The notes beneath the pieces are model-generated. The model searched no databases, was not told the origin of the DNA, and saw only the letters and a list, made by a program, of their open reading frames with translations. A program made the translations under genes and the position numbers. Below, piece after piece: positions 26,361 through 53,198 of a stretch of DNA of 64,000 nucleotides; positions within the stretch are counted from its first letter, which is position 1, and each line of letters opens with the position of its first letter. The DNA is from Arcuatula senhousia (taxonomy: Eukaryota; Mollusca; Bivalvia; Mytilida; Mytilidae): NCBI GenBank assembly GCA_963971305.1, contig OZ020317.1:11302001-11366000 (forward strand). The letters are read 5' to 3'.

Positions 26361-26584
26361 TTTTTTAATGCCTCTACCAAGTAAGGACCATTGGGAACTT
26401 CTATTTCTCTTTTATGTCCCTTGTTTTTCTTTTCTTTTTGGACATTTTAGATTGATCCTCCAAGTTCGGTAAATTTGTTATTTCCTTTATTTCACACATC
26501 ATAAATAACTCACTTAGAAAGGTTTTTTATACTCGATTTCAGAATAGTGGTACCTTTTTCAATTGAATTGAAATTGACATGGTA

Positions 26585-26978
26585 TTTTCATTTAATGAAA
26601 AACATCTCACATAATGATAAAGTATTCTCACATAGTAAAAATAGAATACTAGTAACACAATTGAAATAATCTCGCATAATGAATAAAAAACTTCACATAA
26701 TGAAAAAAGGTATAATCATCACATGATGAAAAAAGTTTTTTCTCACATAATGAGATAGTTTAATCATATATTGAAAAATATGTGTACTCAAAAATAAGAA
26801 AGTATCTAAACATAATGACAAATATTTCTTACATAATTATAAAGACATCTAACATAATGACAAAGTATTCTCACATAATGAAAGTGTTCTATCGAATTGC
26901 AAAGTATTTTCACATAACTGCCAAAAAATCTCACAAAATGACAAAGTATTCTCACATAATGCCAAGATATTCTAACAT
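26585..26978 (+). repeat. Satellite TTCTCACATAATGACAAAGTA, left block
   Basis: Imperfect tandem units of about 20-24 bp built on TCTCACATAATGA.AAAGTAT. Same unit and same strand as the large block at 49765-53345. The two blocks flank an RTE-like LINE, as expected if the LINE inserted into one array. Confidence 0.85.
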
Positions 26979-27444
26979 TACTTACTTAGTCCAGGGATTA
27001 AATAAAACTGATTTTGGACATTCCTGCTTAGTCCTCTTCGTCTCTAGTGAGACATAAGGTTGCAATCTTTTCCCTCCACTTGGGTCGATCTTTTGTTAAC
27101 TTCTTTGCCTCAACCCACGTCAAGCCTCCATTACTCAATTCTGCCACCACTGTCCTTCGCCATGTTGGTTTGGTCTTACAGGTTTCCTTTATCCAGGTGG
27201 AGTCCATCTTGGGACTCTTTTTTGGAGTCGTGATTTTCCCAACCTAGCCACCTTAGCCTTCTTTCCTTATTTTCAATACAATGTAGTGATGTTCTTGCAA
27301 CTAGTGAGTTTTCTTCCATAGTTGCCTGTTTGAAAATGTGTTCGGCCAAAATACATTACTTATCTTCCTGAGGCATCCATTATAGAAACTTTCCAATTTA
27401 AATTCTTCAGGTCACTTTGGATGATCCCCCAGCACTCAGTTCCA

Positions 27445-27640
27445 TAATTAGAAAATAATGAGATGTGGAATAAGTGTACGCGACACAGCCCACAATCAAG
27501 CGGCAATTCAGAAAAACCACAATGAACAACCGCCAGCAGCCTTCAACGAGGCCAGTAGGCGCTGCTCGCGGTTCTGCTATTGACCCATGGTCTAAATAAA
27601 ATGCATATAATTCAAATCCAGTCCTGAAATAGTCACAGAT
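27445..27640 (-). repeat. Dispersed 190-bp repeat, copy 2
   Basis: Reverse-oriented close copy of 12660-12850 (GAACCGCGAGCAGCGCCTAC in both when aligned). It sits inside the LINE between its TKIKLLCSNVK and NYGTECW segments, so it inserted after the LINE. Confidence 0.8.
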
Positions 27641-28029
27641 AGACCTCTTTCTTGACATTACTACATAAAAGTTTGATCTTTGTTTTAAGAGAATATAAGC
27701 TTGATTTCCAAATTGGACGGCAAGATTAGGCTTCCTAGGTAGGTGAACTCTTCAACATAATCTATTGTAGTCTATTTTATTGTGAAATATCTGGTTGGGT
27801 TGGTATTACTTTTCATAGATTTTGTTTTAGAAGTGCTGATGTTTAGTCCTGTTTGTTTTGAGAATTTATTAAGGCGGTCTGTTTTTTCCTGGATGTGGCT
27901 GGCGTTGGTTGATAAAATGGCTAGGTCGTCTGGAAAATCAAGATCTTCTAGGTGTGAGGACAAATCCCATTGTATTCCACTGGGTCTGTCTGCAGTTGTT
28001 TTCCTCATTACCCAATCGATTGTTACAAG

Positions 28030-28038
28030 GAAAAGAAT
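28030..28038. repeat. Left 9-bp target site duplication GAAAAGAAT
   Basis: GAAAAGAAT directly precedes ACCTAACACAAG. The identical 9 bp directly follows ...CTTGTGTTAGGT at 47713-47721. Confidence 0.95.
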
Positions 28039-31000
28039 ACCTAACACAAGTGATTTTCCTTTTCGTTTTTCGTTTTTCGTTTTTCAAATTTTTTTTTTCA
28101 AAAATTTTTTTTTTCGAAATTTTTTTTTTTTCGATTTTGAATAGGAAAATGACCCATTTTCCTTTTCGTTTTTCATTTTCCTTTTCGATTTTGAATAGGA
28201 AAATGACTCATTTTCCTTTTCGTTATTCATTTTCCTTTTCGTTTTTCATTTTCCTTTTCGATTTTGAATAGGAAATTGACCCATTTTCCTTTTCGTTATT
28301 CATTTTCCTTTTCAAATTTTTTTTTTCAAAAATTTTTTTTTTTCGAATTTTTTTTTTTTTTCGATTTTGAATAGGAAAATGACCAATTTTCCTTTTCGTT
28401 TTTCATTTTCCTTTTCGATTTTGAATAGGAAAATGACTCATTTTCCTTTTCGTTATTCATTTTCCTTTTCGTTTTTCATTTTCCTTTTCGATTTTGAATA
28501 GGAAAATGACCCATTTTCCTTTTCAATTTTTTTTTTTCAAAAATTTTTTTTTTCGAAATTTTTTTTTTTTCGATTTTGAATAGGAAAATGACCCATTTTC
28601 CTTTTCGTTTTTCATTTTCCTTTTCGATTTTGAATAGGAAAATTACTCATTTTCCTTTTCGTTATTCATTTTCCTTTTCGTTTTTCATTTTCCTTTTCGA
28701 TTTTGAATAGGAAAATGACCCATTTTTCTTTTCGTTATTCATTTTCCTTTTCAATTTTTTTTTTCAAAAATTTTTTTTTTTCGAATTTTTTTTTTTGTTC
28801 GATTTTGAATAGGAAAATGACCCATTTTCATTTTCGTTTTTCATTTTCCTTTTCGATTTTGAATAGGAAAATGACTCATTTTCCTTTTCGTTATTCATTT
28901 TCCTTTTCGTTTTTCATTTTCCTTTTCGATTTTGAATAGGAAATTGACCCATTTTCCTTTTCGTTATTCATTTTCCTTTTCAATTTTTTTTTTCAAAAAT
29001 TTTTTTTTTTCGAATTTTTTTTTTTTTTCGATTTTGAATAGGAAAATGACCAATTTTCCTTTTCGTTTTTCATTTTCCTTTTCGATTTTGAATAGGAAAA
29101 TGACTCATTTTCCTTTTTGTTATTCATTTTCCTTTTCGTTTTTCATTTTCCTTTTCGATTTTGAATAGGAAAATGACCCATTTTCCTTTTTAAATTTTTT
29201 TTTTCAAAAATTTTTTTTTTCGAAATTTTTTTTTTTCGATTTTGAATAGGAAAATGACCCATTTTCCTTTTCGTTTTTCATTTTCCTTTTCGATTTTGAA
29301 TAGGAAAATTACTCATTTTCCTTTTCGTTATTCATTTTCCTTTTCGTTTTTCATTTTCCTTTTCGATTTTGAATAGGAAAATGACCCATTTTTCTTTTCG
29401 TTATTCATTTTCCTTTTCAATTTTTTTTTTTCAAAAATTTTTTTTTTTCGAATTTTTTTTTTTTTCGATTTTGAATAGGAAAATGACCCATTTTCATTTT
29501 CGTTTTTCATTTTCCTTTTCGATTTTGAATAGGAAAATGACTCATTTTCCTTTTCGTTATTCATTTTCCTTTTCGTTTTTCATTTTCCTTTTCGATTTTG
29601 AATAGGAAAATGACCCATTTTCCTTTTCGTTATTCATTTTCCTTTTCAAATTTTTTTTTTCAAAAAAAAATTTTTCGAATTTTTTTTTTTTTTTTTCGAT
29701 TTTGAATAGGAAAATGACCCATTTTCTTTTTCGTTTTTCATTTTCCTTTTCGATTTTGAATAGGAAAATGACCCATTTTCCTTTTCGTTATTCATTTTCC
29801 TTTTCGTTTTTCATTTTCCTTTTCGATTTTGAATAGGAAAATGACCCATTTTCCTTTTCGTTTTTCATTTTCCTTTTCGATTTTGAATAGGAAAATGACT
29901 CATTTTCCTTTTCGTTATTCATTTTCCTTTTCGTTTTTCATTTTCCTTTTCGATTTTGAATAGGAAAATGACTCATTTTCCTTTTAGTTATTCATTTTCC
30001 TTTTCGTTTTTCATTTTCCTTTTCGATTTTGAATAGGAAAATGACTCATTTTCCTTTTCGTTATTCATTTTCCTTTTCGTTTTTCATTTTCCTTTTCGAT
30101 TTTGAATAGGAAAATGACCCATTTTCCTTTTCGTTATTCATTTTCCTTTTCAAATTTTTTTTTTCAAAATTTTTTGTTTCGAAATTTTTTTTTTCGATTT
30201 TGAATAGGAAAATGACCCATTTTCCTTTTTGTTTTTCATTTTCCTTTTCGATTTTGAATAGGAAAATGACTCATTTTCCTTTTCGTTATTCATTTTCCTT
30301 TTCGTTTTTCATTTTCCTTTTCGATTTTGAATAGGAAATTGACCCATTTTCCTTTTCGTTATTCATTTTCCTTTTCAAATTTTTTTTTTCAAAAATTTTT
30401 TTTTTTCGAATTTTTTTTTTTTTTTCGATTTTGAATAGGAAAATGACCAATTTTCCTTTTCGTTTTTCATTTTCCTTTTCGATTTTGAATAGGAAAATGA
30501 CTCATTTTCCTTTTCGTTATTCATTTTCCTTTTCGTTTTTCATTTTCCTTTTCGATTTTAAATAGGAAAATGACCCATTTTCCTTTTCAAATTTTTTTTT
30601 TCAAAAAATTTTTTTTTCGAAATTTTTTTTTATTTCGATTTTGAATAGGAAAATGACCCATTTTCCTTTTCGTTTTTCATTTTCCTTTTCGATTTTGAAT
30701 AGGAAAATGACTCATTTTCCTTTTCGTTATTCATTTTCCTTTTCGTTTTTCATTTTCCTTTTCGATTTTGAATAGGAAATTGACCCATTTTCCTTTTCGT
30801 TATTCATTTTCCTTTTCAAATTTTTTTTTTCAAAAATTTTTTTTTTTCGAATTTTTTTTTTTTTTCGATTTTGAATAGGAAAATGACCAATTTTCCTTTT
30901 CGTTTTTCATTTTCCTTTTCGATTTTGAATAGGAAAATGACCCATTTTCATTTTCGTTTTTCATTTTCCTTTTCGATTTTGAATAGGAAAATGACTCATT

Positions 31001-32038
31001 TTCCTTTTCGTTATTCATTTTCCTTTTCGTTTTTCATTTTCCTTTTCGATTTTGAATAGGAAAATGACCCATTTTCCTTTTCGTTATTCATTTTCCTTTT
31101 CAAATTTATTTTTTCAAAAAAAAAATTTTCGAATTTTTTTTTTTTTTCGATTTTGAATAGGAAAATGACCCATTTTCTTTTTCGTTTTTCATTTTCCTTT
31201 TCGATTTTGAATAGGAAAATGACCCATTTTCCTTTTCGTTATTCATTTTCCTTTTCGTTTTTCATTTTCCTTTTCGATTTTGAATAGGAAAATGACCCAT
31301 TTTCCTTTTCGTTTTTCATTTTCCTTTTCGATTTTGAATAGGAAAATGACTCATTTTCCTTTTCGTTATTCATTTTCCTTTTCGTTTTTCATTTTCCTTT
31401 TCGATTTTGAATAGGAAAATGACTCATTTTCCTTTTAGTTATTCATTTTCCTTTTCGTTTTTCATTTTCCTTTTCGATTTTGAATAGGAAAATGACTCAT
31501 TTTCCTTTTCGTTATTCATTTTCCTTTTCGTTTTTCATTTTCCTTTTCGATTTTGAATAGGAAAATGACTCATTTTCCTTTTAGTTATTCATTTTCCTTT
31601 TCGTTTTTCATTTTCCTTTTCGATTTTGAATAGGAAAATGACCCATTTTCCTTTTCGTTATTCATTTTCCTTTTCAAATTTTTTTTTCAAAAATTTTTTT
31701 TTCGAAAATTTTTTTTTTCGATTTTGAATAGGAAAATGACCCATTTTCCTTTTCGTTTTTCATTTTCCTTTTCGATTTTCATTTTCCTTTTCGATTTTGA
31801 ATAGGAAAATGACCCATTTTCCTTTTCGTTATTCATTTTCCTTTTCGTTTTTCATTTTCCTTTTCGATTTTGAATAGGAAAATGACCCATTGTCCTTTTC
31901 GTTATTCATTTTCCTTTTCAAATTTTTTTTTTCAAATTTTTTTTTCAAATTATTTTTAATTTTTAATTTGACTAGGAAAACGACCCATTTTCCTTTTTGT
32001 TTTTCATTTTCCTTTGCGATTTTGAATAGGAAAATGGC
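28039..32038 (+). repeat. Left arm satellite of the giant Foldback element
   Basis: Tandem blocks such as CGATTTTGAATAGGAAAATG, ACCCATTTTCCTTTTCG and TTATTCATTTTCCTTTTCG, separated by T-rich spacers CAAATTTTTTTTTCAAAAATT. A higher-order period of about 229 bp shows between 28703 and 28932. A larger duplication of about 1.45 kb is marked by the rare variant CCTTTTAGTTATTC near 29990 and again near 31435. All long open frames here are low-complexity by-products. Confidence 0.9.
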
Positions 32039-32040
32039 CC

Positions 32041-32354
32041 ATATAACTCTCAAGGTTATTTTTCAAATTTGTTGACTGTTCAAAACGTTAGACCCCCCCC
32101 CCTCCAATTTTAACCCTACTAGTTGTAATGTTACAGTCCCACATCTTTCAACCAAGCTTCGATTTGAAATTTTTAACAGCTGTAATTATTCACAGTCTTC
32201 TACTGTAAATTGCAGAATATATAACCTAAAAATTGTTAATTTTTGGAAATACATTGTTTTGTTTGTTATCGTAATTTGTTGAATTAATTTCTACCTAGAG
32301 TCATAAGAGTTCAAAATGTTCAAAATGTTTAGGTTCACCAATATGTTATGTACG
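32041..32354. other. Spacer inside the giant element, no gene seen
   Basis: AT-rich spacer with a C run at about 32092-32104, between the left arm and the inner Foldback-like unit. No feature recognised. Confidence 0.5.
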
Positions 32355-32387
32355 GAAGCTTATTAGGGACATGCATAAAAAAAATTT

Positions 32388-32680
32388 CGCCACGGCGAGT
32401 TACTATTTCGCCCTGGCCAATTATCATTTCGCCGCGGCGAGTTACTATCTCGCCTCGGCGACTTATTATCTCGCCCGGCGACTTATCATCTGGCTGCGGC
32501 GAGTTACTATCTCGCCTCGGCGACTTATTATCTCGCCCCGGCGACTTACTATCTCGCCCCGGCGACTTATTATCTCACCCCTGCTAAATTTATCTCGCCC
32601 CGGCGAGTTACTATTTCTCCTCGGTGACATACTATCTCGCCCTGGCGAGTTAACTGTCTCGCCCCGGCGACTTATCCTTC
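32388..32680 (+). repeat. TCGCCTCGGCGACTTATTATC array, left arm of the inner element
   Basis: About a dozen imperfect units of about 24 bp: TCGCC(C/T)CGGCGA(C/G)TTA(C/T)TATC. Each unit contains the short palindrome TCGCC.CGGCGA. The arm is inverted relative to 37684-37975. Confidence 0.9.
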
Positions 32681-32689
32681 AAAAAATAG

Positions 32690-34345
32690 CGGGTAACGAA
32701 AGATTTTTGCGCCATTTTTTCCCCGTAAAAATCGGCTTTCCCATTACGGATTTATTGCTCTTTTTGACATCTTTTGCCGATTTTTACTTTAATAACTTCA
32801 AAAATCTTCTCTACAACTGCTTGGACAAATGCAACCAAACTTGAAACTTGATACATTTGTTTCTTAGGGTATCCTGCACGGAACTGATGAGGAGATTTTT
32901 TATTCTTAGAAATTCATGACCGCCGATTCTAAAAATAGAACATTGGGTAAAAGAGCACTTTTTTAAAAATAACGCAAAAATGGTAAGGTTAAGCCACATT
33001 CTTTGAGGGGTAAACAGTTTCAGAATGATGAAAACTACCTGTGGACAAATATCCGTAAAAATCTGATAACTGATGCTGGAGTAATTTCCCTTTTTGTCGG
33101 TTTTTGCTAATTTTTAGTTTGTCGTTGCTTGGCGTCCGCCATCGTTGTTAGCAATCATTTTATACAAAACCAGAAGGCAAAAATAAGTAAAATTTGGCAT
33201 AAATGTACCTTAGGGTATTATGCAAAAAGTTTGATTTGGGAAGTTTTATCCATCCACAAATATGGTGGCTGTTGCTAAAACAAAATGGAGCCTTCCCCGG
33301 AAGGCATATGTCGCCTGCGTATCTATGTTTTCTTGTAAACAGGAAGTAGATGGGTTACGGGCATAAAAACTCTCTATGCCATATAAAACACTAGAGGCTG
33401 AAGCTGCATGCAAAGTATCAAGTGATCTGACTGTTGCATGCAGTTACCCGAAAAGTGTGACGAAAATTTAGCGTATATGTTCATTGTATATAAAACGTTA
33501 AGTGGTCTGTTGTATGCAGTTACCCGAAAAGTGTGACGAAAATTTTGCGAATATGTTCATTGTATATAAAACGTTTTAACGTATTTGTCAAACAGAAAAT
33601 AGTTATTTTACGGGCATAAAATTTATATTAACCTTAAAGTACTATGGGATGAAGCTACATGCCAAATATCAAGAGGCTGTGGCATGTAGTTGCCCGGAAA
33701 ACTGCGACGAAAATTTTGCATATATGTTCATTGAAAATAAAACGTTTAGTATTGGTCATGTTCGTCAAACATTAATAGTTTTTATTTTACGGGCATAAAA
33801 TCGCTTTACACCTTGTAGTACTATGGGATGAAGCTACATGCCAAATATCAAAGGCTGTGGCATATATTTGCCCGGAAAACTGCACCGAAAATTTTGCATA
33901 TATGTTCATTGTATATAAAACGTTAAATTATTCGTCAAACAGAAAGTAGTTATTCTTCGGGCATAAAATCGCTTTACACCTTGTTGTACTTTGGGATGAA
34001 GCTACATGCTAAATATCAAGAGGCTGTGGCATAAAATTGCCTGGAAAACTGCGACGGAAATTTTTGTGAAACCGCAGGACGACAGATGGAGCCAAAGTAA
34101 TCCCTATATCATGTCGCATCTGCAACACGTTGCAGGCGACATAAAAAGAACATCCTACCTACAGGGATAAAACTAACTTAAGGGCATAGCAACCCAAAAA
34201 CAATAATAGACGGAAGAATTTGAAGTCACCATCCTCATTCAGAATGAAAAGATCTACAAAAGTCTCCATTTAAGATTTTATTTGAACGAAACGTTCATAT
34301 AAGCATACTAGACCAGGTGAGCGATTCAGTCTCCTGGGAGCCTAA
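32690..34345 (+). repeat. Degenerate AGCTCACC-type element with a nested ATGTCGCCTGC element
   Basis: CTTCAAAAATCTTCTCTACA near 32797 resembles the start region of the AGCTCACC family, and GACCAGGTGAGCGATTCAGT then CTCCTGGGAGCCT near 34312-34343 is its typical end. The inner 33308-34143 unit is a separate insertion. No coding content recognised. Confidence 0.55.
33308..34143. mobile_element. ATGTCGCCTGC...GCAGGCGACAT element
   Basis: 11-bp perfect inverted ends. The interior holds about four tandem units of about 150 bp, each with GGGCATAAAATCGCTTTACA-like, GGGATGAAGCTACATGCCAA and TATATGTTCATTGTATATAA segments. A related terminus (ATGTCGCTTACAACGTGTTT then CAAAGCGACAT) occurs at about 37226-37256. 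Confidence 0.65.
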
Positions 34346-34924
34346 AGTTAAATTGATCCGATGAAACCTGCTGCTGTTGCTAAAATAGAGCAGGAGGGTT
34401 AAATAACAGGTTTCTTGCAAAAAGCTCAAAACGGCCATAGAACTATATCAAAATTCTTGCAAGGGTAAAAAAATAACGAACTTGTGAAGAATCAATCTCA
34501 AATATTCATAGCAAAAGACAAATCAAGAGCACTCGCCGGATATATGAATGATCAAAATAGTCCTGACTTGGTAGAGGCGTTCAAATTTGAAACGTTTATG
34601 GCGCCAAACCTCACTGTTCAATTACATTCATATGATCCGGTAGTAACAAAAACACGACATGGTTGTAAATATTAAAACGAAAGAATAGGAAATGTGTGCC
34701 AGAAAGACACGATTCACATATAGACATCATATTATTTAAAAAAGATCAGAATGAATTTCACTGCGTTTAGCGCTTTTCTGGATAAACCTTCATCAGACAA
34801 GCTAGGGGCCGAAAAACTGGAAGACCGGTAACACATACACAGTAGAACATGACATATTGCTGAATGTTAAAAAAAGTCATTATGCATTCCAATGGATGGA
34901 GTCGTACTAGTATATGAGGCCCCG

Positions 34925-35605
34925 TAATGGCCGAGTTGATGTTAACTCCAATGTGTCCTCAGTGCGAGCACTTGACTGCAGTGTTCCACAGGGAAGTTGC
35001 AAGCCTCGGGCCGTGGCTTTACCTAACCTTTGCAGAAACAATTTTTGACAAAGTCCCTCCCTCCATTCAGTGTATGGTTTTGCAGACGATCACACGGCAA
35101 ACAGACGAGAATTGAACCATCGGTAACAGAGGAACACGTGCCTTTACAGAACGTCAGGACTGTGCAATGACCATCAATAAATGAATGAACCATAACAAAA
35201 TAAAATTGAACAATGCAAAATCACTGTTCATTCTGTTTGAAAGTAAGAAACAACTTGAAATAAACATCTGTGAAAACCAAATTAAATCTGAAAACTGTAG
35301 TAGGTATCTTAGTGTATTATAGGTGAATCTTTGAATTATATAAAGAGCGCATAAAAAGAAAACGTAAAACTCCTGTCAAAAGAAGCCACTGAAAACCTAG
35401 TACTTTCTTTGGTTATATCTCACTTAGATTACTGTAATATAATATTGTATGGTATTTCACAAACTGAATTGTCAAAACTTGAAATAATTCAGAAAATGTG
35501 TGCTAAACTTGTATTGTGTCTTTCTATGTATGACAGTTCTAAACAAGCTCTGTTTGAATTGCATTGGCTTCCAATTAAGGCACGTATTATTTTAAAATCT
35601 TAACT
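34925..35605 (+). pseudogene. LINE reverse transcriptase fragment (CR1/L2-like), decayed
   Basis: In shifting frames: VNSNVSSVRALDCSVPQGSC, then LYLTFAETIFDKVPPSIQ, then VYGFADDHTANRREN with the catalytic FADD. Later come KLNNAKSLFILFESKKQLE and LVISHLDYCNIILYGISQTE ending LFELHWLPIKARI. These are RT core and thumb blocks of CR1/L2-type LINEs (VPQGS, FADD, K.EFILFG, S.LDYCN.LLYG, LHWLPV..RI). Several frameshifts and stops: not functional. Confidence 0.8.
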
Positions 35606-35655
35606 TATATGTAGAATTGTTCTGTTGGTAATGTACTATTGTATTTAATTGAACT

Positions 35656-36358
35656 TTTGTCCGTCGTCGTCCGTCGTTCATTAACAATTTCAAAAATCTT
35701 CTCCTCTGAAACCACTGAACCAATTTGACTCAACATTGCAGGAATGATTTATGAAATGTTGACAAGAAAAGATTTTAATATGAAATGATTCGATTAAAAC
35801 ATGGCCGCTGTTACTAAAAATAGAACATAGGGTAAAATCACTTAAAATGGCTTATAACTCAGCAACAATAACAGATAGAAAAAAAATTGAGGATTTTAGG
35901 CTCTTCAGAATCAAAAGCTCTACGATAGTCTCCATTGGGTCGAAGTTGTCAGATGACCCCTTATAGGCATTATGGCCCTTTTAAGGTCAAGAATAGCGTT
36001 TTTCATGTTTTTGCCCTATAGAATGAAAACTACTGCAGATAGAGAAAAGCTGTTGCTTGCTTAAATGTTCAGCTCATTAAGCTCTACAAAAATCTCCATT
36101 GGGTCGAAGTTGTCAGATGACCACTTATAGGAGTCATGGTCCTTTACAGGTCAAAAATAGCGTTTCTTCATTTTTTTTGTCCTATAGATTGAAAACTAAT
36201 GCAGATAAAAAAAAAGATGTTGCTTGCTTATACATGCATCTCTTTACTAGAGCTTCACAAACGTCTCCATTGAGTATCAGTTGTCAGATGACTCCTTAAA
36301 GAAAAGACCCTTATGGCTCAAGGACCAGTTACCAATTCAGGCTCCTGGGGGCCTCTTG
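35656..36358 (+). repeat. AGCTCACC-type element, truncated copy D
   Basis: It begins in the GTCCGTCGTCGTCCGTCG microsatellite and ATCTTCTCCTCTGAAACCAC, and ends CAATTCAGGCTCCTGGGGGC then CTCTTG. Three internal units with GTTGCTTGCTTA and GTTGTCAGATGACC. The 5' hairpin is missing. Confidence 0.7.
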
Positions 36359-37300
36359 TTTCTCGAAGACTAACCCAGACATACACGATAAATCCGAGGC
36401 TTTTGCTACTTGTATCACATTTGGATTTCAAGTGATTTTTCATAGCGATAGGCTGGTACCCCGTTGTTATCATTATCTGAACAGAATGGAACCGTAAAAG
36501 ATGGAGAAAAGGTTTTGTTTGCCTCCATGTTCATGTAATAGAGCTTTACAAAATTGTCCAAGAATTAAAATTGTCAGATGACCACGTTATAAGTGTTATT
36601 GTCCCCTTGAAGCCTTATACATTGAAAGGATAAAAGATAATGAAAATTATGGTTTTGATTTCTTAAATTTCCAGTTAATTAAGCTTTACAGTGGTTCCAG
36701 GCTGTTGGCAATAGGAAATATTGATACATTGAGTACGTTGTTATAGCCAGTTGGGAGCCTCATGTTTATAATGTGGATTTCATATCTCTGGGGTCAAAGT
36801 ACTTTTAAAGCGAAATATATTACCGCAATGACCAAACAGCTCATTAAAATTAATTGCAGTTGCAGTTTTTATTTGTGGTCTCGTGCTCATTTTGCTCCAT
36901 ATCCTTTCATAATTTTTAGCCTTCTAGAATATGAACCAACGAATATAATGAAAAGGTTTTGCATACTTAAATGTTTTGGTAATTGAGCACTACAAAAGTG
37001 TCCATTTGGGTGAAATTGTCAGATGGCCCCTTAATTTCCAAAACAAAAAGTGGATTGTACTTGATAGGCGGTGTGCTACGATAGAAAATAGTGACAAGCA
37101 GTTGCTTGTTTAAAAGCCCATTCAATGAGCACTACAAAGGTTCAAGATGGATGCTGGCAATGAAAAATATTGATACATTGAGTCCTTGAAGCCAGGTGAG
37201 CGATCCAGGCTCCTGGAAATCTGTTTTATGTCGCTTACAACGTGTTTCAAAGCGACATATAGGAGACACTGTGTCATAATCCGTAGCTTTGCGTCCTTCA
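36359..37300 (+). repeat. Older AGCTCACC-type remnants and an ATGTCGC terminus
   Basis: Scattered internal-unit motifs (TTGTCAGATG.CC, GCACTACAAAAGTGTCCATT) and an end GCCAGGTGAGCGATCCAGGC then TCCTGG at about 37191-37216, then the ATGTCGC palindromic terminus. No gene. Confidence 0.5.
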
Positions 37301-37683
37301 TCATGCCTCAACACAAAAACTTCCGTCACAGTTTTCTCAGCAACTACATTAAAAAACCTCTTGATATTTGTCATGCATTTTTGTCCTATTGTACTATTAG
37401 GTATACAGCGATTTTATGCCCCCCAAAAGGCCTACTTCCTGTTTGCCGAGAACTTGATTTTTTTCACATGTAGTGAAATTATAAAGAATTTTCATCGAAG
37501 TCTTTATTAAGAAGAAAAAATATGGAATATATGCCAGAGAGACACGATCCCATATACACTTCATACAAGATATTGTAAAAAAAGAACAAAAGGAACTACA
37601 GTTATTTAGCATGTATCGCTGTTTTATTGTACCATTAGGTGTAAAGCGATTTTATGCCCCCAAAAAGTCCTACTTCCTGTTTA

Positions 37684-37975
37684 ACTCGCCACCGGGAGAT
37701 CATAAGTCGCCAGGGCGAGAGAATTAACTCGCCGGGGCGAAATAGTAACCCGCCGTGGCGAGATAATAAGTCGCCGAGGCGAGGTAACAAGTCGCCGCGG
37801 CGAGATATTTACTCGCCTAGGCGAGATGATAAGTCTCAGATGCGAGATAGTAAGTCGCCGGGGCGAGAAAGTATCTTGCTGGGGCGAGATAGTAACTTGC
37901 CGGGGCGAGAAAATAAGTCGCCGAGGCGAGATAATAAGTCGCCGAGGCGAGATAGTAAGTTGCCGATGCGAGTTT
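37684..37975 (-). repeat. TCGCC-rich array, right arm of the inner element
   Basis: Units such as CGCCGAGGCGAGATAATAAG, the reverse complement of the left-arm unit. It runs into GATGCGAGTTTTTTGTATGC, which mirrors the left end. Confidence 0.9.
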
Positions 37976-38041
37976 TTTGTATGCGTGTCCCTAATAAGTT
38001 TCCGGAGTTGTGCATGAAGGGACTCATTTCTTTTTATTTCT

Positions 38042-38255
38042 AACGTAAAAAGGAACTGCTAACTCTTCCGGAGCACCTGAGTTCACTCTTGTTTCGACTG
38101 GAGTTCGGATTGTTGATTGATATTCAGTATTTTGTGTTTCCATGTTTTTCGTGTTGTCTGTTTTTGTCCCGTTCTTGTAGGTGTTTACTGGTTTTGTCTC
38201 TGCCCTTTCGGACTTTTGACATTTGGATACCCAATTGATACCTCTGCTTCATTTT
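38042..38255 (+). pseudogene. Penelope-like element 3' tail fragment
   Basis: Matches the tail sequence downstream of the Penelope-like RT at 52206-53095 and at 44660-45064: GGAACTGCTAACTCTTCCGG, ACCTGAGTTCACTCTTGTTT and GTTTTGTCTCTGCCCTTTCG. It abuts the end of the inner Foldback-like unit. Confidence 0.75.
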
Positions 38256-38559
38256 GTCCTAATAGGTTGAAAACTTCCAGTCAATCGTGAAACTATCAAT
38301 CAGTGTTCTGTGACTTATCAGGCCATACTACAATCCTGGGTATTTTTTCATAAGTGTGCTTTGCTTTAAAAGTATTACGTTTTCCTACGATGAACTTTCC
38401 AGCTTTTGGAAATAAAAATTCGTTTGCTTATCAACGAACTCGTGTTTTGACACTGCATTTTATTCTGCAAACTGAAAATGATTGATCTATAAGCGCAAAG
38501 AGTAAAATTTTTGAAATGCATGTTATATACATTATGTAATTCAGTTTTTTAGCTTTGCT

Positions 38560-38795
38560 TTCATTTGTTATTGACCGTTATGAACGCGGCGAGTGTGTTG
38601 CAACAAGAACGAACTACGTACTTATCCTTCCGGAACATCTGAGTTCATTCTCGTTAAGATTTGAGTTCGCGAAAAGCCGTTGCTTATTGCTTCTCTGTTT
38701 TTTTTTTTGTTTAGTTTTAACTGATTGTGTATTCGCCTTTTGGGACTATTAACATGTCCCATTGATACTTCGCTGCCGCTATTATTCTGCTATCA
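38560..38795 (+). pseudogene. Ancient Penelope-like 3' tail fragment
   Basis: More diverged copy of the same tail: CTTCCGGAACATCTGAGTTC, then TTTGAGTTCGCG and a TTCGCCTTTTGGGACTATTA end. The reading LPEHLSSFSLRFEFA parallels LPEHLSSLLFRLEFA of the younger copies. Confidence 0.6.
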
Positions 38796-40394
38796 TGTTC
38801 GGTTTGTCGTTGTATTTAACTGGACTACTCTTTATTTCTTTCTAGCCTGCAATTTGTTGTACATTGTATACAGTTTGACCATTCTACAGTTTCTTCCAAT
38901 TGATGATCAAGTTATTGATGATTTTATTGAAACAAAAAGGTTTTGACGTGAGGAAAAGTGTATGATACCGGTGTGTCACCTCTTTTACAACGAAAAATAG
39001 CATAACATGTTCTTTTTTTAAATCTTGATTTTCCTATTCTTGAATGATTTGAGTTAACAAATATGATCATCAGCATCTCATAAAATGTTTCTATCAAGTT
39101 TGGTTTAAGGTTTAGATCAGATGTGATCTGAAATTATTGTTCATTTTTGCCGGACAATTGAAGCCGTTGGAAGAGGAATTATCATCCGCATAGGTTAAAC
39201 ATAGTCATAATTTGACCTCTTAATCGTTTTTTTTGCTTTGTTTAACTGTTACGTGTATTTAGGGTTAGGGTAATTTATGTAAAATTTATGTAATCTATTC
39301 TTGCTCAACGATCAATAAATATCACGTGATCAAACTATTTTAGTGGATTTGTCGAGGTCACCCGGTCAAAGCAATTTTAATCAACGGTAAACATTAAATT
39401 GTACCGTGTCCAGTTCTGCAGTACACAAAATAGCCTAATCATGATCAAATCGTCTCTTCTCCGTAACTGATTCACGATTATAGTTGTTGGTTAAGCCAAT
39501 GAAACATTCTGTTACTTTTGCAAACTTGTTAAACAGCCAATCAACGCGTTCATAAGTGATTGATTATTTCAAGATGGCGTGAATATCCTATGAAATTAAT
39601 AGCTTCGCACCTTGATGCGAAGCAACAAATTTAAATTTGTGTATCAGTCCACCTAAATATGTCGGCCAAAGTTTGTCATAAGTCAAAAATTATCTTTATA
39701 AGGTAGCAACTATTTGATTTTAATGGGGGAGGGTGGGCTTTGGATATTTTCTTCCTGCCTTTTTATTTTCGAAAAAAAAACTAGCCTATTTTTTATGTGC
39801 GGTAGCACCCGCATGTTTTGTTTTATTTTCAATCTTTTATTATTTTTTTTTAGCAAAAAATACCATCCTGTCTTTTTTAATTCAAAGCACTGTCCTGCCA
39901 TTTTATTTCTGGATGTTTGCCATCCTGCCTTTTTATTTCAAAGTTCACCATAGCGCCATCCCTTTTAACAATCAAATGATCGCCCCCTAACCAGCCAAAG
40001 ATTATTCTTTCTGGGAAGTTATATTTTCATATACTGTGTTCATATGTTAGAATAAAATCAAATATGAAATCTTGTTGACATTTGGTTTTGTAACCAAATA
40101 AATTAATCTAAGCTAAAGAGACTGAATAACAAAAATGATGTTCTACTCTCTACCTGACTTCTAATTAGAATACTACTTAAACATTAAAAGTTCAAAGATT
40201 ATAAATCAAATTAAAAAGCATATTTTTAACATATATCTCCATCGATGACACATGACATACATATAATACTTTCATGTCCTAAGTGCGTCCTAACCAAAGT
40301 CGTCGTATTTTATGCTATTTGTTTTTATGTCAAGAAGGGGGTCTTTTATCGACACTTTAGGATTTGGCTTGAATCATATGTAGTTTATTTTTAA

Positions 40395-40545
40395 TCTAAG
40401 GCCACTTGCAAAACAGTGAGCAGCGACCGCTGGTCACATTGAAGGCTACTGGTTGTTGTTCGTTGTTGATGTTTTAAATCGTTGTCAATGTTGAAGCTGT
40501 GTCGCGTACACTTATTCCACATCTCATTATCTTTTATGGATGTGC
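40395..40545 (+). repeat. Dispersed 190-bp repeat, old copy 3
   Basis: GTGAGCAGCGACCGCTGGTC, then GTGTCGCGTACACTTATTCC and ACATCTCATTATCTTTTATG align with copies 1 and 2 with many changes. Confidence 0.55.
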
Positions 40546-42744
40546 AGTGAACAATGGATAGATAATTTCGCCTCTTTAATCTATTTATAAATGTATATGC
40601 ATGTATTTTGTCGATAGCCTAATTCATTGGTGGTGACAAAGTTTAATTCGGTTTTATATTCCTTTTGATATATTATATTCTATTGTTGTCTCTCACCCAA
40701 AGTTTTGTTGTCTTTTACTATTCATAGTTATGCGTGAAATGTAAAAGTATTAGAATAAGTCTATGATTTTTTTTATACTGCGCTTTTCCATATTGACCAG
40801 TTTGTTCGCAATGACCTGTGTGCCTTTCGTAAAGTATTCTTTAATAGCAACTTCGTTCTGTTATTCCGGTATCTCGCTTATAATCTGAAAATAAGTTTTC
40901 AGTATTAAAAAAAATATTAGTCTTGCTTGTGCTTTAATATAATCGGCTACCCTACAAACTCTTCACAAAGTTTTGTGAACATTTCAACAGGTGTTTCTTT
41001 GTCGTGTTAACGTTATATACCCTCTTAAAAAAGAAACACAACATACAAAAAAAATTGAAATTACATCACATAAAGAAGTCGTGCTTTCTATCATCAGTTG
41101 TTGCAATATCAATAAGAATTTTGACTAAGTTTTTCTTTAGTTGCTAAAATTTTGTTAAACTATTAGCAATTCGAGGGCGCATGCCATTAAGAATTGTGTC
41201 AATCAGTTTGTTTGCAAGACAGCACTCAAACTGCTATCCTCTGTTTCAAAAGAACGTTGCATGCAAGATTTCTTATTATCAGATTTCAATCACAAACATC
41301 ACTCATTTTCCCTTTTAAAATGTACAATTATAACGTAAAAATGCCGTTTTTGTGTTCTGAGACCTACCAGTTTGGCACCGTTTCCAAAGAATAAAATTTT
41401 ATTGTAATATTTTGAAAAATATAATATTTTAGAGAAGAATTATTTCTTAAGCCGAATATTTAGATTAAAACCATTTATCATATTAGGCATTAAATGAGGT
41501 TTTCCTATGTCCAATGAACGTCGGTATAAATATGTACCTCTTATTTTAGACATTCCGTATAATATTTAAAATAATAAACGATTAATGTTCTGTAATAGAT
41601 CCTCTGGTAGCAATATTGACTGACCGATTTACCCTGTCTAGACGGAAAAAAAACGCGAAAATCAGATAGCTATATGACTCTATAAGGCTCTGCCTAAAAA
41701 TGATCGGAAAGGGATTTTATTAAGTAGGTGTGTGCTTTATTTTATGGATCTTCGATTGCGCAGTTAGGCTTGGCGCATGCACAGATCCAATTTATTCAGA
41801 TGATAACCGATTTTCTTTCAGATTAGAATTTTCAGAAGTTCTTTAAAAAGCATCGATGTCTCGTGTTATACGTTTGTTATGCTATTGGTAAGGCGTCTGA
41901 AGTACCCATTTGACTCTTTATGCACTTTATAAAAATCCCTGAACTTTTTTTTCACACTGTTTGTAATTAATTGGAATGTTTTCAAGATTTTCTTGTACAA
42001 AAATGGTATTTCAGACCAAGACAATGTTTTGGGACTGATTTCTTCCCTCGAAATAAATTAAAGGGGAATTCCCTTGTTCAAAACTCTTCCAACTGAAATG
42101 CCGTGTACGGGCGAATTTCACACCTAGTATTGAGCCTGCTGTTAACCACTAAAAGAGGCATTATCGTTTTGATAATTGTTGTAACAGAAAACGATTAACA
42201 CATGGTTTTTGAACCAAAAAGCTACTGTTTCAAGCATTGGTCACCAGAATTACTGGATGTTAACTTAGGCCTTCACTTTCAATATTTTTTTAAAAATTAG
42301 ATAAGGGCAATCGCTATAGTGCACCCGACATTATTAAACACTTAAGGTATTGGAGCAGAGTCTTCAATGTATGTGAATATGAAAGCCAGAAGATCGTGCT
42401 CAGCGTTCTTTTTAAAAACCAGAAAGAGCACGAGTTAAGTCGTGACGCAAGCATTTAGTCTATATTACTACTATTGGCGCTACGTATCCGTTAGTTAGAA
42501 CATGCGAGTTTTGCTTATGCCACACGTTATATTATTCTTCAATGCCCATACCAAATGTCACACTAGTACGACAATAACAATAAAGTACCCTCCTCGTTCT
42601 TGTAACATTGTATGAGATTACTGACGAGTGCTAGTGTAAATAGAACCAAGAAATTATTAGTATGAAAGAAAGGAATATTACAAATGAACCTATGGCTACA
42701 ACTAATTGTTATATAAGATTATATCAGTAAACATTTGTTTTAAC

Positions 42745-43090
42745 AGGAGACGACGACCGCCTCATAATTTATCTGGCGACCGCCACTTAGGCTATGGCGG
42801 CGGCCACTTTATTTATCTGGTGGTCACCTTATATTATACATGTAACACAATCGCCACTTAAGTAAATGGCCGTCACCACTTGTTATGTCCCAACATCCAC
42901 TTTATTTATTTTGCGGCTGCTATATAATAGGTACCGACCGCCAGATGCATTTAGAGGCAGCTACCATAAATATTAAGTAGCGGCCGATAAAATAATTAGT
43001 GACGACCGTAATATTAGTTTTGGTGGCCGCAACATAATAAGTAACGACCGCAATATATTAAAGTGGCGGCAGCAATTTAATAAGCGGTTG
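42745..43090. repeat. GCGACCGCCACTTA imperfect palindromic array
   Basis: About a dozen degenerate units of 25-28 bp with a GC core (GCGACCGCC, GGCGGCGGCC, TAGCGGCCG) and an AT spacer (ACTTTATTTATCTG, AATATTAAGT). Units on the left read mainly GACCGCCACTT and on the right AAGTGGCGGC, so the array is roughly symmetrical, like a third, decayed set of foldback arms. Confidence 0.6.
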
Positions 43091-44659
43091 AATCTTATCA
43101 AAACACATATTTTAGTCTTGCTTGGCACTACATGTAAAAGGCTTCCATCAGATAAACTATTTAGGACAAAATACAACATGCCTGATTATTTGGACTTTTA
43201 CACACAAAAAAACCCGTTATGGTCGCTTACAATATAAAAATCATACAAAAGTCAAGGTATAGTGAGGTATGTCGTCTTGTTTTTTCCTCTTTTCTTCTTG
43301 GATATTAGGATTGCCCATCCCAGTTCGGTAATTTTTGTTATTTCCTTTTTTAAAAGGTAAAATTAGCGGTTTTTTTTCATGACATTGGTCAGTTACTTGA
43401 GCTCTTAAAAAATCTATAAATATATATTAGGCACAAAAATAAACGATACCAAAATTATTAAACTGATCTTAAGGCTGACTTCTTAAAGAAGTAACTTTAC
43501 GCGGTTTTAAATAAAAACTACCAGTTTTATCATTTTAAGTTACAAAATTTAACAGTTTAAAAGTGAAAAAAAAAACAATCATATGATCTTTAAATAGCGT
43601 GATGAAAGAGCGATAGTGTGCTACTTTCAGAGTTTGGCTTGCTTGTGGGCCATTTTTGCAAAAGCACTTTCCTGGCGCTTCGATTGCTTTTTTCAAGTCC
43701 AATTCATAAATGGCGTCAGTTCAGCATTAGATATGCAATAAATGAACCAGTTTCGAGCACAGATATGATTTTCTTGTATTTGACGTTTCGACGTTTTTTG
43801 TCCTCGACGTGTACTGGGATGATGTGTGTCAAAAGTGTAATATCAGGTTTGAAAAACAAACTGAGATTAAAATGCAAAGAAACCTGTAAAATTTAATTTA
43901 TCATTTTGCTCTGTTTTGACGTTGACGTTGTTTTCGATTTTCAGATTTTCCAGTTTCAGTTTTGATCGCCTTTTGGTTGTCTTATATTGTAAAAAATGAA
44001 ACATTTCATAATCAAGGTTAAAATTCTAACATTTCTTTCAAGATAATTTTCACTTTTTATTGTTAAAATTGACGTTATTTGACGGCATTGAAAAATGTTG
44101 TTCACTTCAACTGAAGAATAAATTTTTCATTCTATTCATATAACAAATTGCAGTCAAACAGTTTCGTGGAACTATGTTAAAATTAAAAAGCCTTGGTATC
44201 GTTTGTTTTTGTGGCTTGTATATATGGCCCCTTATTGAAGTTATGGGCATTAAAGGGCAGATTTTATCTTGAAACTTGAAAACTGTACAAAACACAAAAT
44301 ATCAATCAAAGCTGTTAAAAAACGGTATATTTGGTTTTGCTATATACTTGTATGCATATTTCAAGAAAAACTTTTAATCAGCATTTAAAGCAAAACATTA
44401 GAAGGTCGAAAACCAACAAAAGAAACGAAAGAAAAACAATCGTTTCCAAAAAGCAAAAAGATAGAAGAAGCGATTACTTAGTACATAAATTTTCATCTAA
44501 AACTGATTATCGTTGTCAAGTATTTATCTCTTAAAAAAAAACACAGAGAAGATTCTCAATCTTTGTTTGATGTCCTGTCCTTTTTGAAAAAAAAACAACC
44601 AAAGATCATCTGAAGCTAACACAAATCAAATATCTAACGAGAACATAGTTTATGTTGCT

Positions 44660-45064
44660 AGGTTATGTTGCTCCTCGGTTGCTGTCTTCACTCAAGAAAT
44701 TTTACGGAAGACATCATGCACTTATAGACAAATATGGGATTTCGATCTCTCAGATGAGTGCAGATGTTGGTTTGTCATAGGGTGTTGTTTTGTCTTCCTT
44801 TACCGGATTTGACACGCTGAATGGACTATTGGCAACGCGACGGGTGTGCTATAGCAAGCAGGAACTGCTTACTCTTCCGGAGCACCTGAGTTCACTCTTG
44901 TTTCGACTGGAGTTCGCGTTGTTGATTGATATTCAGTTATTTTGTGTTTCCATGTTTTACATGTTGTCTGTTTTTGTCCCGTTCTTGTTGGTGTTTACTG
45001 GTTTTGTCTCTGCCCTTTCGGACTTTTGATATTCGGATACCCCATTGGTACCTCTGCTTCTTAG
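44660..45064 (+). pseudogene. 5'-truncated Penelope-like element (C-terminus and 3' tail)
   Basis: It starts with codons matching LLSSLKKFYGRHHALIDKYG, then ISISQMSADVGLS and a stop, as at the end of the minus-strand copy at 52494. The tail (GGATTTGACACGCTGAATGG to GGTACCTCTGCTTC) follows. All RT motifs are missing. It is nearly identical to the 52-kb copy, so both are young. Confidence 0.85.
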
Positions 45065-45164
45065 ATACACGTTAATTTTTTTCTGTTTATGATTTTGCAT
45101 CAAGGCGTTCAAAATTGTGCTTCGGAGACCTGAATTTTGTTTACTTTATAACTTTAAGAAGAAT

Positions 45165-47712
45165 GTAAAGGAAAATTAAAAACAAAAAGGAATATGGGCC
45201 ATTTTTCTATTCAAAATAAGAAAAAAAGAAAAAAAATCAAAAAAAAAAATTTGAAAAAAAAAATTGAAAAGGAATATGAATAACGAAAAGGAAAATGGGC
45301 CATTTCCCTATTCAAAATCGAAAAGGAAAATGAAAAACGAAAAGGAAAATGGGTCATTTTCCTTTTCAAAATCTAAAAAAAAAAATCGAAAAAAAAATTA
45401 AATTTGAAAAGGAAAATGAATAACGAAAAAGAAAATGGGCCATTTTCCTATTCAAAATCAAAAAGGAAAATGAAAAACGAAAAGGAAAATGAATAACGAA
45501 AAGGAAAATGAGTCATTTTCATATTCAAAATCGAAAAGGAAAATGAAAAACGAAAAGGAAAATGAGTCATTTTCCTATTCAAAATCGAAAAAAAAAAAAT
45601 TCGAAAAAAAAAATTTTTGAAAAAAAAAATTTGAAAAGAAAAATGAATAACGAAAAGGTAAATGGGTCATTTTCCTATTCAAAATCGAAAAGGAAAATGA
45701 AAAACGAAAAGGAAAATGAATAACGAAAAGGAAAATGAGTCATTTTCCTATTCAAAATCGAAAAGGAAAATGAAAAACGAAAAGGAAAATGAATAACGAA
45801 AAGGAAAATTAGTCATTTTCCTATTCAAAATCGAAAAGGAAAATGAAAAACGAAAAGGAAAATGGGTCATTTTCCTATTCAAAATCGAAAAAAAAAAATC
45901 CGAAAAAAAAAAATTTTTGAAAAGGAAAATGAATAACGAAAAGGAAAATGGGTCATTTTCCTATTCAAAATAGAAAAGGAAAATGAAAAACGAAAAGGAA
46001 AATGAATAACGAAAAGGAAAATGAAAAACGAAAAGGAAAATGGGTCATTTTCCTATTCAAAATCGAAAAAAAAAAAATTCGAAAAAAAAATTTTTGAAAA
46101 AAAAAAATTGAAAAGGAAATTGAATAACGAAAAGGAAAATGGGTCATTTTCTTATTCAAAATCGAAAGGGAAAATGAAAAACGAAAAGGAAAATGAATAA
46201 CGAAAAGGAAAATGAGTCATTTTCCTATTCAAAATCGAAAAGGAAAATGAAAAACGAAAAGGAAAATGGGTCATTTTCCTATTCAAAATCGAAAAAAAAA
46301 ATTTTCGAAAAAAAAAAATTTTGAAAAAAAAAATTTGAAAAGGAAAATGAATAACGAAAAGGAAAATGGGTCATTTTCCTATTCAAAATCGAAAAGGAAA
46401 ATGAAAAACGAAAAGGAAATTGAATAACGAAAAGGAAAATGAGTCATTTTCCTATTCAAAATCGAAAAGGAAAATGAAAAACGAAAAGGAAAATGGGTCA
46501 TTTTCCTATTCAAAATCGAAAAAAAAAAATCGAAAAAAACAAATTTTTGAAAAAAAAAATTTGAAAAGGAAAATGAATAACGAAAAGGAAAATGGGTCAT
46601 TTTCCTATTGAAAATCGAAAGGGAAAATGAAAAACGAAAAGGAAAATGAATAACGAAAAGGAAAATGAGTCATTTTCCTATTCAAAATCGAACAGGAAAA
46701 TGAAAAACGAAAAGGAAAATGGGTCATTTTCCTATTCAAAATCGAAAAAAAAAAAAAATTCGAAAAAAAAAAATTTTGAAAAAAAAAATTTGAAAAGGAA
46801 AATGAATAACGAAAAGGAAAATGGGTCATTTTCCTATTCAAAATCGAAAAGGAAAATGAAAAACGAAAAGGAAAATGGGTCATTTTCCTATTCAAAATCG
46901 AAAAAAAAAAATTTCGAAAAAAAAAATTTTTGAAAAAAAAAATTTGAAAAGGAAAATGAATAACGAAAAGGAAAATGGGTCATTTTCCTATTCAAAATCG
47001 AAAAGGAAAATGAAAAACGAAAAGGAAAATGAATAACGAAAAGGAAAATGAGTCATTTTCCTATTCAAAATCGAAAAGGAAAATGAAAAACGAAAAGGAA
47101 AATGGGTCATTTTCCTATTCAAAATCGAAAAAAAAAAAATCGAAAAAAAAAAAATTTTGAAAAAAAAAATTTGAAAAGGAAAATGAATAACGAAAAGGAA
47201 AATGGGTCATTTTCCTATTCAAAATCGAAAAGGAAAATGAAAAACGAAAAGGAAAATGAATAACGAAAAGGAAAATGAATAACGAAAAGGAAAATGAGTC
47301 ATTCTCCTATTCAAAATCGAAAAGGAAAATGAAAAACGAAAAGGAAAATGGGTCATTTTCCTATTCAAAATCGAAAAAAAAAAAATCGAAAAAAAAAAAA
47401 TTTTGAAAAAAAAAATTTGAAAAGGAAAATGAATAACGAAAAGGAAAATGGGTCATTTTCCTATTCAAAATCGAAAAGGAAAATGAAAAACGAAAAGGAA
47501 AATGAATAACGAAAAGGAAAATGAATAACAAAAAGGAAAATGAGTCATTTTCCTATTCAAAATCGAAAAGGAAAATGAAAAACGAAAAGGAAAATGGGTC
47601 ATTTTCCTATTCAAAATCGAAAAAAAAAAAAATTTCGAAAAAAAAATTTTTTGAAAAAAAAATTTGAAAAACGAAAAACGAAAAACGAAAAGGAAAATCA
47701 CTTGTGTTAGGT
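45165..47712 (-). repeat. Right arm satellite of the giant Foldback element
   Basis: Reverse complement of the left-arm satellite: GAAAAGGAAAATGAAAAACG, AAAATGGGTCATTTTCCTATTC and TCAAAATCG blocks with A-rich spacers. Shorter than the left arm (about 2.5 versus 4.0 kb). The outermost part mirrors the left end base for base apart from A/T run lengths. Confidence 0.9.
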
Positions 47713-47721
47713 GAAAAGAAT
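47713..47721. repeat. Right 9-bp target site duplication GAAAAGAAT
   Basis: Identical to 28030-28038 and placed directly after the GTTAGGT end. Confidence 0.95.
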
Positions 47722-48236
47722 AGGGGAAATAATGCACACCTGTCTTACTCCACACTCAACCCGAAACCAATTAGATGTGCTGCTGTTTAATATGATGCTG
47801 TATCATAATTTTTTAAATGAATTTGATGTACTTTGACGGTTATCCGTAGTGGTGTAGTATTTGCCATAATCTTTCTCTATTTACACTAGCTGCCAAAGCA
47901 TTTTTGAGATTAATGAAGTTGATTTATAGAGGGCTGTTCCATTTAATGCATTGCTCAATGATGTTTCTTAACGTGAAAATTTGATCTATGCATCCCCTTC
48001 CTCTCCTAAAGCCAGGTTGTTCGTTGTCAATGGCAGATTCTATTCTAGTTAGTAATACTTTACAGAAGACTTTACTGGGTGTTGGCAGCAGTGTGATACC
48101 TCGCCAATTGTCGGAGGTCTCCTTTCTTCGGTAGTTTCACAATTAAACCTGAATAAAAAAGATGTGTTAGGACTGTTGTTGATATTGTTATATCCGTCTT
48201 CAACATTTCAGAGTGTATCTAATCTACATCTGGGGC

Positions 48237-48403
48237 CAATCTAATTAAAATTACACGTTAGTTTGAATCTTTTTTTTGCTCTGGCGACAATCTAATTAAA
48301 ATTACACGTTACATGCGTTAGTTTGGATCTTTTTTTTTGCTCTGGCGATATCGCCAGAGCAAAAAAAAAAGATTCAAACTAACGTGTAATTTTAATTAGA
48401 TTG
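48237..48403. mobile_element. Small 167-bp foldback MITE with a 10-bp target duplication
   Basis: CAATCTAATTAAAATTACAC at the left is perfectly inverted at the right (GTGTAATTTTAATTAGATTG). The centre is the palindrome GCTCTGGCGATATCGCCAGA. The left arm is duplicated in tandem. The 10-bp CATCTGGGGC flanks it on both sides (48227-48236 and 48404-48413). It lies within the same LINE as the giant Foldback. A 10-bp duplication fits a MULE-type transposase. Confidence 0.88.
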
Positions 48404-53095: not shown

Positions 53096-53198
53096 GAAAT
53101 GAATTCTAACAAAATGATAGAGTACTCTCAAAAAGAGTTCTCTCTTAATGACAAACTAATCTCACATAACGAAGAATTCTCGCAACCTAGACGTTTAG

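Follow-up and report, generated by a model that had tools for sequence, protein, structure and literature searches.

A putative non-autonomous Foldback-type element with inverted tandem-array arms inserted into a LINE of the bivalve Arcuatula senhousia

Introduction

Among the closest described systems are foldback transposons and related elements whose termini contain tandem repeats. Tetris of Drosophila virilis is a foldback element that is apparently non-autonomous and generates target duplications of 8–10 bp. The tandem repeats within its terminal inverted repeats (TIRs) have a segment in common with the outer domain of the TIR and are additionally found as kilobase-size arrays, and the middle domain is non-coding. 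The longest TIRs measure 1,735 bp; their ~220-bp repeats follow an outer domain whose length is at most 866 bp (PMC4079207). Rehavkus elements generate a 9-bp target duplication; they comprise TIRs of 26–400 bp, a minisatellite ahead of the 3′ TIR and a PHD-finger transposase, and are found in arthropod and annelid hosts (PMC6446971). In Rehavkus-1_TC of Tribolium, the tandem repeats of the inverted termini correspond to the satellite TCsat23, whose 164-bp monomers are mostly present in numbers of 5 and 8 (PMC10218199).

Here, we describe a locus in a stretch of 64,000 nucleotides of the Arcuatula senhousia genome (assembly GCA_963971305.1, contig OZ020317.1, positions 11,302,001 to 11,366,000; hereafter the window, to which all coordinates refer). 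An earlier note on this DNA had proposed that positions 28039–47712 constitute a Foldback-type element with satellite arms. Our analysis likewise points to a Foldback-type DNA transposon, which we read as non-autonomous and as inserted in a single event, and it indicates that the insertion interrupted a retrotransposon whose empty site can still be read.

Results

Element ends and target duplication

The foldback-type element extends over 19.7 kb of the 64-kb window. Its limits at 28039 and 47712, as given in the earlier note, are exact: the ends, ACCTAAC.../...GTTAGGT, belong to termini of 59 bp (28039–28097 on the plus strand and 47654–47712 on the minus strand) that match each other perfectly in inverted orientation. 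The first 14 bp of the terminus are present in the window only at both ends of the element. The perfect 9-bp target duplication that had been claimed is likewise present, since GAAAAGAAT directly abuts the element on both sides (28030–28038 and 47713–47721, both plus strand). These are the only two sites of this 9-mer on the plus strand of the window, and its reverse complement is located at 22601 and 55772. The expectation from base composition for the agreement of two 9-mers at two fixed positions is ~9e-6; when random pairs were drawn from the actual repeat-rich flanks, 294 of 2,000,000 agreed (1.5e-4). A duplication of the ~9 bp typical of foldback elements is found at both ends, and the empty site agrees with it.

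The empty site in an interrupted LINE

Both flanks represent halves of a single non-LTR (long terminal repeat) retrotransposon, i.e., a long interspersed nuclear element (LINE), on the minus strand. The 5′ part, located at 47722–49757 (minus strand; outer limit approximate), comprises the endonuclease and the N-terminal half of RVT_1, and the 3′ part, at 26981–28038 (minus strand; outer limit approximate), comprises the C-terminal portion of RVT_1 and a weak DUF6451. Taken alone, the right flank yields the endonuclease PF03372 and RVT_1 positions 3–107 (28.2 bits), while the left flank yields RVT_1 positions 152–202 (23 bits) in addition to the weak DUF6451; both RVT_1 scores fall below the curated cut-off of 29.6. 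Joining the flanks with one copy of the 9-mer results in the reading ...GVRQVCIISP/ILFLVTIDWVMRKTT..., which runs without a break through a stretch of LINE reverse transcriptase and in which ILF at the join is the translation of the 9-bp target. The joined peptide of 115 amino acids matches RVT_1 107–193 with 38.1 bits (E=1.8e-9), above the curated cut-off. Moreover, 14 of the 17 relatives found in the database are uninterrupted at the SP/ILF join; two of the other three start at or just upstream of the SP at the join, and one is without the region. This reading of the empty site is independent of the target duplication, and it is the strongest evidence that the element is a single insertion. 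The restoration of the LINE RVT_1 at the exact join therefore makes it difficult to explain the locus by an assembly join or by a pair of arrays unrelated to each other, and is a strong argument against both.

The LINE is itself bordered by short-unit arrays at 26572–26980 and 49759–52203, which share the same orientation and are 67–78% alike where they match. The LINE looks to have inserted into an older short-unit array, and an order with the array first, the LINE second and the foldback element third is coherent, the first of these steps being the one that we infer. A retroelement 3′ end at 52212–52613 adjoins the array at 49759–52203. Within the interrupted LINE, a self-complementary hairpin of ~167 bp at 48237–48403 resembles a miniature inverted-repeat transposable element, with CTCTGGCGATATCGCCAGAG near its 3′ side.

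The arms are inverted arrays of shared modules

The inverted satellite arms of kilobase length described in the earlier note were found as such. The left arm (28039–32045, plus strand; 4,007 bp) is a tandem array of modules of 54, 73 and ~100 bp with block duplications, and the right arm (~45171–47712, minus strand, inner limit approximate; 2,542 bp) is an inverted array of the same modules. These usually follow each other in the order 54, 73 and ~100 bp, giving a combined unit of ~227 bp. The arms are not mirror copies of each other, as module order and several diagnostic variants differ between them. The left arm harbors private variants and long exact block copies (436 bp at an offset of 1451), modules of 92 bp are peculiar to the right arm, and the longest exact match between left and right arm comprises 177 bp. 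The mean mismatch between modules of the same type amounts to 1.4–3.2% within arms and 1.6–2.8% between arms. These values are based on 52 modules of the left and 29 of the right arm; long runs of T were shortened, gaps were ignored, and a short module of the left arm as well as three long ones (92–93 bp) of the right arm were omitted. Given the similar values, the arms are no more divergent than the modules inside one arm. The locus thus displays long inverted termini composed of tandem repeats, and arm length and repeat number vary within this one copy.

The left arm contains 33 and the right arm 21 occurrences of a 19-mer that corresponds to nucleotides 15–33 of the terminus. This 19-mer is never present on the other strand of an arm, and no occurrence was found in the interior or the remainder of the window. 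Nine short module motifs were counted, two of which have a single match each outside the arms in the window. Since the modules hold the element's own subterminal 19-mer, which is absent elsewhere in the window, the arm array probably originated by expansion of the subterminal region, a route that has been proposed for Tetris. By the same token, the inclusion of nucleotides 15–33 of the terminus makes the array look like an amplified transposon end rather than a satellite picked up. The terminus and the module had no match in viral contigs and the terminus none in prokaryote genome contigs, results with weak bearing on an animal element.

A single unit of 229 bases, folded as single-stranded DNA, reaches −27.8 kcal/mol as compared to −12.4 (sd 2.7) for shuffled sequences (z −5.7), and none of 200 shuffles was as stable.

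The interior is rich in repeats

The interior (32046–45170) comprises 13,125 bp. A stop-masked search in all six frames at E<=0.1 returned no Pfam family, and a laxer scan of 38251–44660 gave DUF7042 as the sole match (E=1.4; 9.3 bits compared to a cut-off of 27). When applied to the flanks, this stop-masked search did pick up the decayed LINE. A stretch at ~34950–35640 that resembles a decayed LINE reverse transcriptase by eye had no Pfam match in the three plus-strand frames and was not counted.

Repeats make up 6,464 of the 13,125 bp (49%) if the entire nested structure described below is counted, and the other half is without a match elsewhere in the window. The nested structure, at 32353–38004, consists of inverted outer arrays of a 21-bp minisatellite (TCGCC..GGCGA) and inner repeats of ~170 bp. 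Of 32 positions compared at its ends, 29 are identical, its outer arrays are ~78% alike, and it probably represents a second, older foldback-like element. The piece 35659–36301 inside this structure is related to arrays at 18–26 kb. In addition, the interior contains two truncated retroelement 3′ ends on the plus strand (38051–38250 and 44661–45062), the latter being 97.5% identical to 52212–52613 on the minus strand; all three have a common stop at ...CTGCTTC. Furthermore, a piece of 210 bp at 40327–40536 is 73% identical to 27449–27658.

Other repeats and frames in the window

A satellite-like repeat of ~155–165 bp (AGCTCTACAAAAGTCTCC...) forms dispersed arrays at 18445–19978, 21177–22077, 24830–26317 and 35916–36301, the last of which lies inside the element. 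A dispersed repeat of ~180 bp is present at 12664–12844, at 27450–27630 in the LINE flank and at 40327–40536 in the interior of the element.

Outside the element, an open frame of 378 amino acids at 55332–56465 contains a YIDD motif and appears reverse-transcriptase-like by eye; it had no Pfam match. Among 7998 scored sequences, 5538 are related to it at E<=0.001, some with a precomputed PF00078, and among the 120 relatives listed, the two that have a species name are both from Pinctada imbricata. A frame at 52497–53105 on the minus strand resembles it by eye.

Discussion

A single insertion, most likely moved in trans

We consider it likely that 28039–47712 arose by a single insertion and represents a Foldback-type DNA transposon that is non-autonomous, the transposase acting in trans being most likely MULE/Rehavkus-like (MULE, Mutator-like element). 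The whole argument rests on this one locus, where the Foldback-type anatomy of the earlier note is supported and gains strength from the LINE that reads through the empty site. The assignment to the MULE/Rehavkus group is based on the 9-bp stagger together with the terminal tandem repeats. MULEs generate target duplications of 8–11 bp and Rehavkus elements, which contain a minisatellite, of 9 bp (PMC6446971); the 9 bp observed here lie within the former range and equal the latter, and a tandem repeat in or beside the TIR is present in both arms. A PHD-finger transposase, as encoded by Rehavkus, was not recognised in the interior, as expected of any non-autonomous copy. All mollusc genomes analysed in a study of bivalve transposons contain MULEs (PMC10294476).

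According to this reading, the element would be excised and inserted with a 9-bp stagger by a DDE transposase that is encoded elsewhere and most likely belongs to the MULE/Rehavkus group. The enzyme would bind the termini and probably also the repeated 19-mer in the arms, which could provide extra sites. Arm length may change via unequal exchange or slippage, perhaps aided by hairpins of the modules. With lower confidence, we suggest that the interior with its many repeats might have been carried as cargo at least in part, the older nested structure included.

Alternative explanations and points against this reading

It is highly improbable that two separate inverted arrays, or an inversion or assembly join within the arrays, imitate one element. 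Arrays with exact internal copies of up to 436 bp are admittedly hard to assemble, but the perfect 9-bp duplication, the 59-bp termini and the LINE frame restored at the exact join stand against this explanation, as do arms that differ in order and private variants and share no exact match longer than 177 bp. A mirrored assembly chimera was rejected because of the differences in module order and variants between the arms, and independent arrays or an inversion because the LINE reads through the joined site. A Helitron or Helentron with central arrays was rejected as well, as the arrays at this locus are terminal and inverted and are accompanied by a 9-bp duplication; Helitrons and Helentrons are not known to generate a target duplication. 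The arms might instead derive from a pre-existing genomic satellite that was captured by a transposon, and kilobase arrays of modules with higher-order structure are indeed typical of satellites. We regard such a capture as improbable, given that the core of the modules is a 19-mer starting at nucleotide 15 of both termini that is absent from the remaining window. Somewhat more weight, though still as an unlikely alternative, is due to a transposase from outside the MULE/Rehavkus group (a P-like enzyme such as that of Galileo, Merlin, or an unknown one), with the foldback form being convergent. No enzyme was recognised in the interior of the element, and Galileo demonstrates that the foldback form exists within the P superfamily; however, its duplication comprises 7 bp (PMC3573991), whereas 9 bp together with tandem repeats at the ends fit Rehavkus, Tm1 and Tetris best.

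Several points, here and in the following paragraph, weigh against a 19.7-kb transposon mobilized by a MULE/Rehavkus-like enzyme. Duplications of 8–9 bp also arise from other superfamilies, and 9 bp are no proof of a MULE. No transposase was recognised inside the element, either by the Pfam search in six frames at E<=0.1 or by the laxer scan of 38251–44660. Moreover, heavily decayed genes can escape a stop-masked Pfam scan, as the reverse transcriptase seen by eye at ~34950–35640 went unrecovered. An imperfect palindrome in the first 14, 16 and 21 bp of the terminus is not distinctive, its best score being matched by 1691, 2747 and 4065 of 5000 shuffles, respectively; palindromic termini have reportedly been described for FARE and several other foldbacks, but not as a universal feature. 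Finally, a target duplication was looked for at the ends of the nested structure 32353–38004, and none was found.

The length that was transposed is a separate question. The retroelement piece at 44661–45062 looks young (97.5%) and may well have arrived after the jump. Nested insertions that followed the jump may have extended the interior, in which case the transposed length would be below 19.7 kb. Carried to its extreme, this would mean that a small foldback element, made up of arms and little else, entered the LINE and was enlarged by nested insertions in place, so that the 19.7-kb unit was never mobile as a whole. We consider this a serious possibility, to which we assign a little less than even chances. 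It is favored by the part of the interior assigned to repeats (6,464 of 13,125 bp, the whole nested structure included), by the young-looking retroelement piece and by the observation that large cargo is generally disfavored: transposition efficacy falls above 6 kb of cargo, and one survey of Pack-MULEs found none longer than 7 kb (PMC6431247). On the other side, half of the interior is without any match elsewhere in the window, and the outer insertion looks younger than what it contains. The outer ends differ at 0 of 59 and the duplication at 0 of 9 positions, as compared to 3 of 32 positions at the nested ends and arms that are ~78% alike, which suggests that the nested structure is older than the outer insertion and was carried inside it; the argument would be weakened if the ends underwent conversion or if the nested arms were unlike originally. 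We only tentatively put forward that ends made of kilobase higher-order satellite arrays, which evolve by block duplication, still allow excision and insertion of a 19.7-kb unit together with the ~13 kb of DNA rich in repeats that it encloses, a proposal that we regard as possible and rather doubtful.

Significance

The locus provides a clean case in which a satellite-like array is demonstrably part of a transposon and in which the empty site is readable. The order of events, with the terminus first and the array second, is testable at this locus. Transposition of such arms offers a direct route for the spread of inverted tandem arrays, which are prone to rearrangement, and a 19.7-kb element, if mobile as a whole, would seed new inverted satellite arrays wherever it inserted. 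The length of the arms and the overall size of the element are also relevant to the load of repeat DNA that a cut-and-paste transposase can carry. The idea that satellites can be moved as transposon termini, which the earlier note had put forward, is not new, as the principle has been published for Tetris, whose foldback arms were shown to feed satellite DNA (PMC4079207), and for Rehavkus-1_TC with TCsat23 (PMC10218199).

Comparison with known systems

Among the literature matches listed, as judged from titles and the starts of abstracts, no foldback element of a bivalve is described. In the excerpted bivalve satellite literature, the passages with the term 'foldback' name Tetris only, and the word is absent from the main text of a paper on bivalve transposons (PMC10294476). 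The Cg_HINE Helentrons of the oyster are bivalve mobile elements with satellite-like arrays as well; in these non-autonomous elements, however, the arrays are central, whereas the arrays at this locus form inverted ends with a 9-bp duplication (PMC7492417).

Ising elements of Drosophila are comparable in that large DNA segments are moved between foldback sequences. In contrast to the element described here, with single arms and 19.7 kb in length, they are composite, extend over hundreds of kilobases and have a foldback transposon on each side (PMC6431247). Galileo, a member of the P superfamily, shares long, internally repetitive TIRs and independently varying arms (PMC3573991, PMC3688188), and the tandem repeats in its TIRs contain further THAP-domain binding sites of the transposase (PMC3688188). 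It differs in its 7-bp duplications, its TIRs of ~0.3–1.2 kb and the superfamily of its transposase (PMC3573991).

Tm1 of Meloidogyne resembles the element in that its TIRs are composite, foldback-like and variable in length and contain a redundant motif, in its 9-bp duplications and in the elements nested inside it. However, the copies considered here are small (1,080 bp; a class typically <0.5 kb; a clone of 3,154 bp around Cg-1), the motif measures ~14 bp, the inverted repeat is bordered externally by asymmetric 7-bp ends, and a group with a putative transposase has been described (PMC3169594). With respect to Rehavkus, the element has arrays in both arms and no recognised transposase, and its 19.7 kb compare with 9.5 kb for Rehavkus-1_TC (PMC10218199). 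As compared to Tetris, the arms are 4.0 and 2.5 kb long, the repeat theme begins after 14 bp, the interior comprises 13.1 kb, and AT-rich modules are combined into a higher-order repeat unit of ~227 bp. The longest TIRs given for arthropod MULEs, which are also shorter than the arms described here, measure 1,193 bp according to the text and 1,527 bp according to one row of a table (PMC13359780).

Taken together, arm length and the higher-order structure of the arms exceed those of the published cases compared here. The earlier note had described size and satellite composition as seemingly exceptional; the element is an unusually large representative of a type of transposon that is already known. 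FARE of Arabidopsis, which has foldback ends and 9-bp duplications, is said to include large members of up to ~16.7 kb, so that total size alone is not outstanding; it reportedly differs in TIRs of ~550 bp, in palindromic termini and in the coding interior of its large members.

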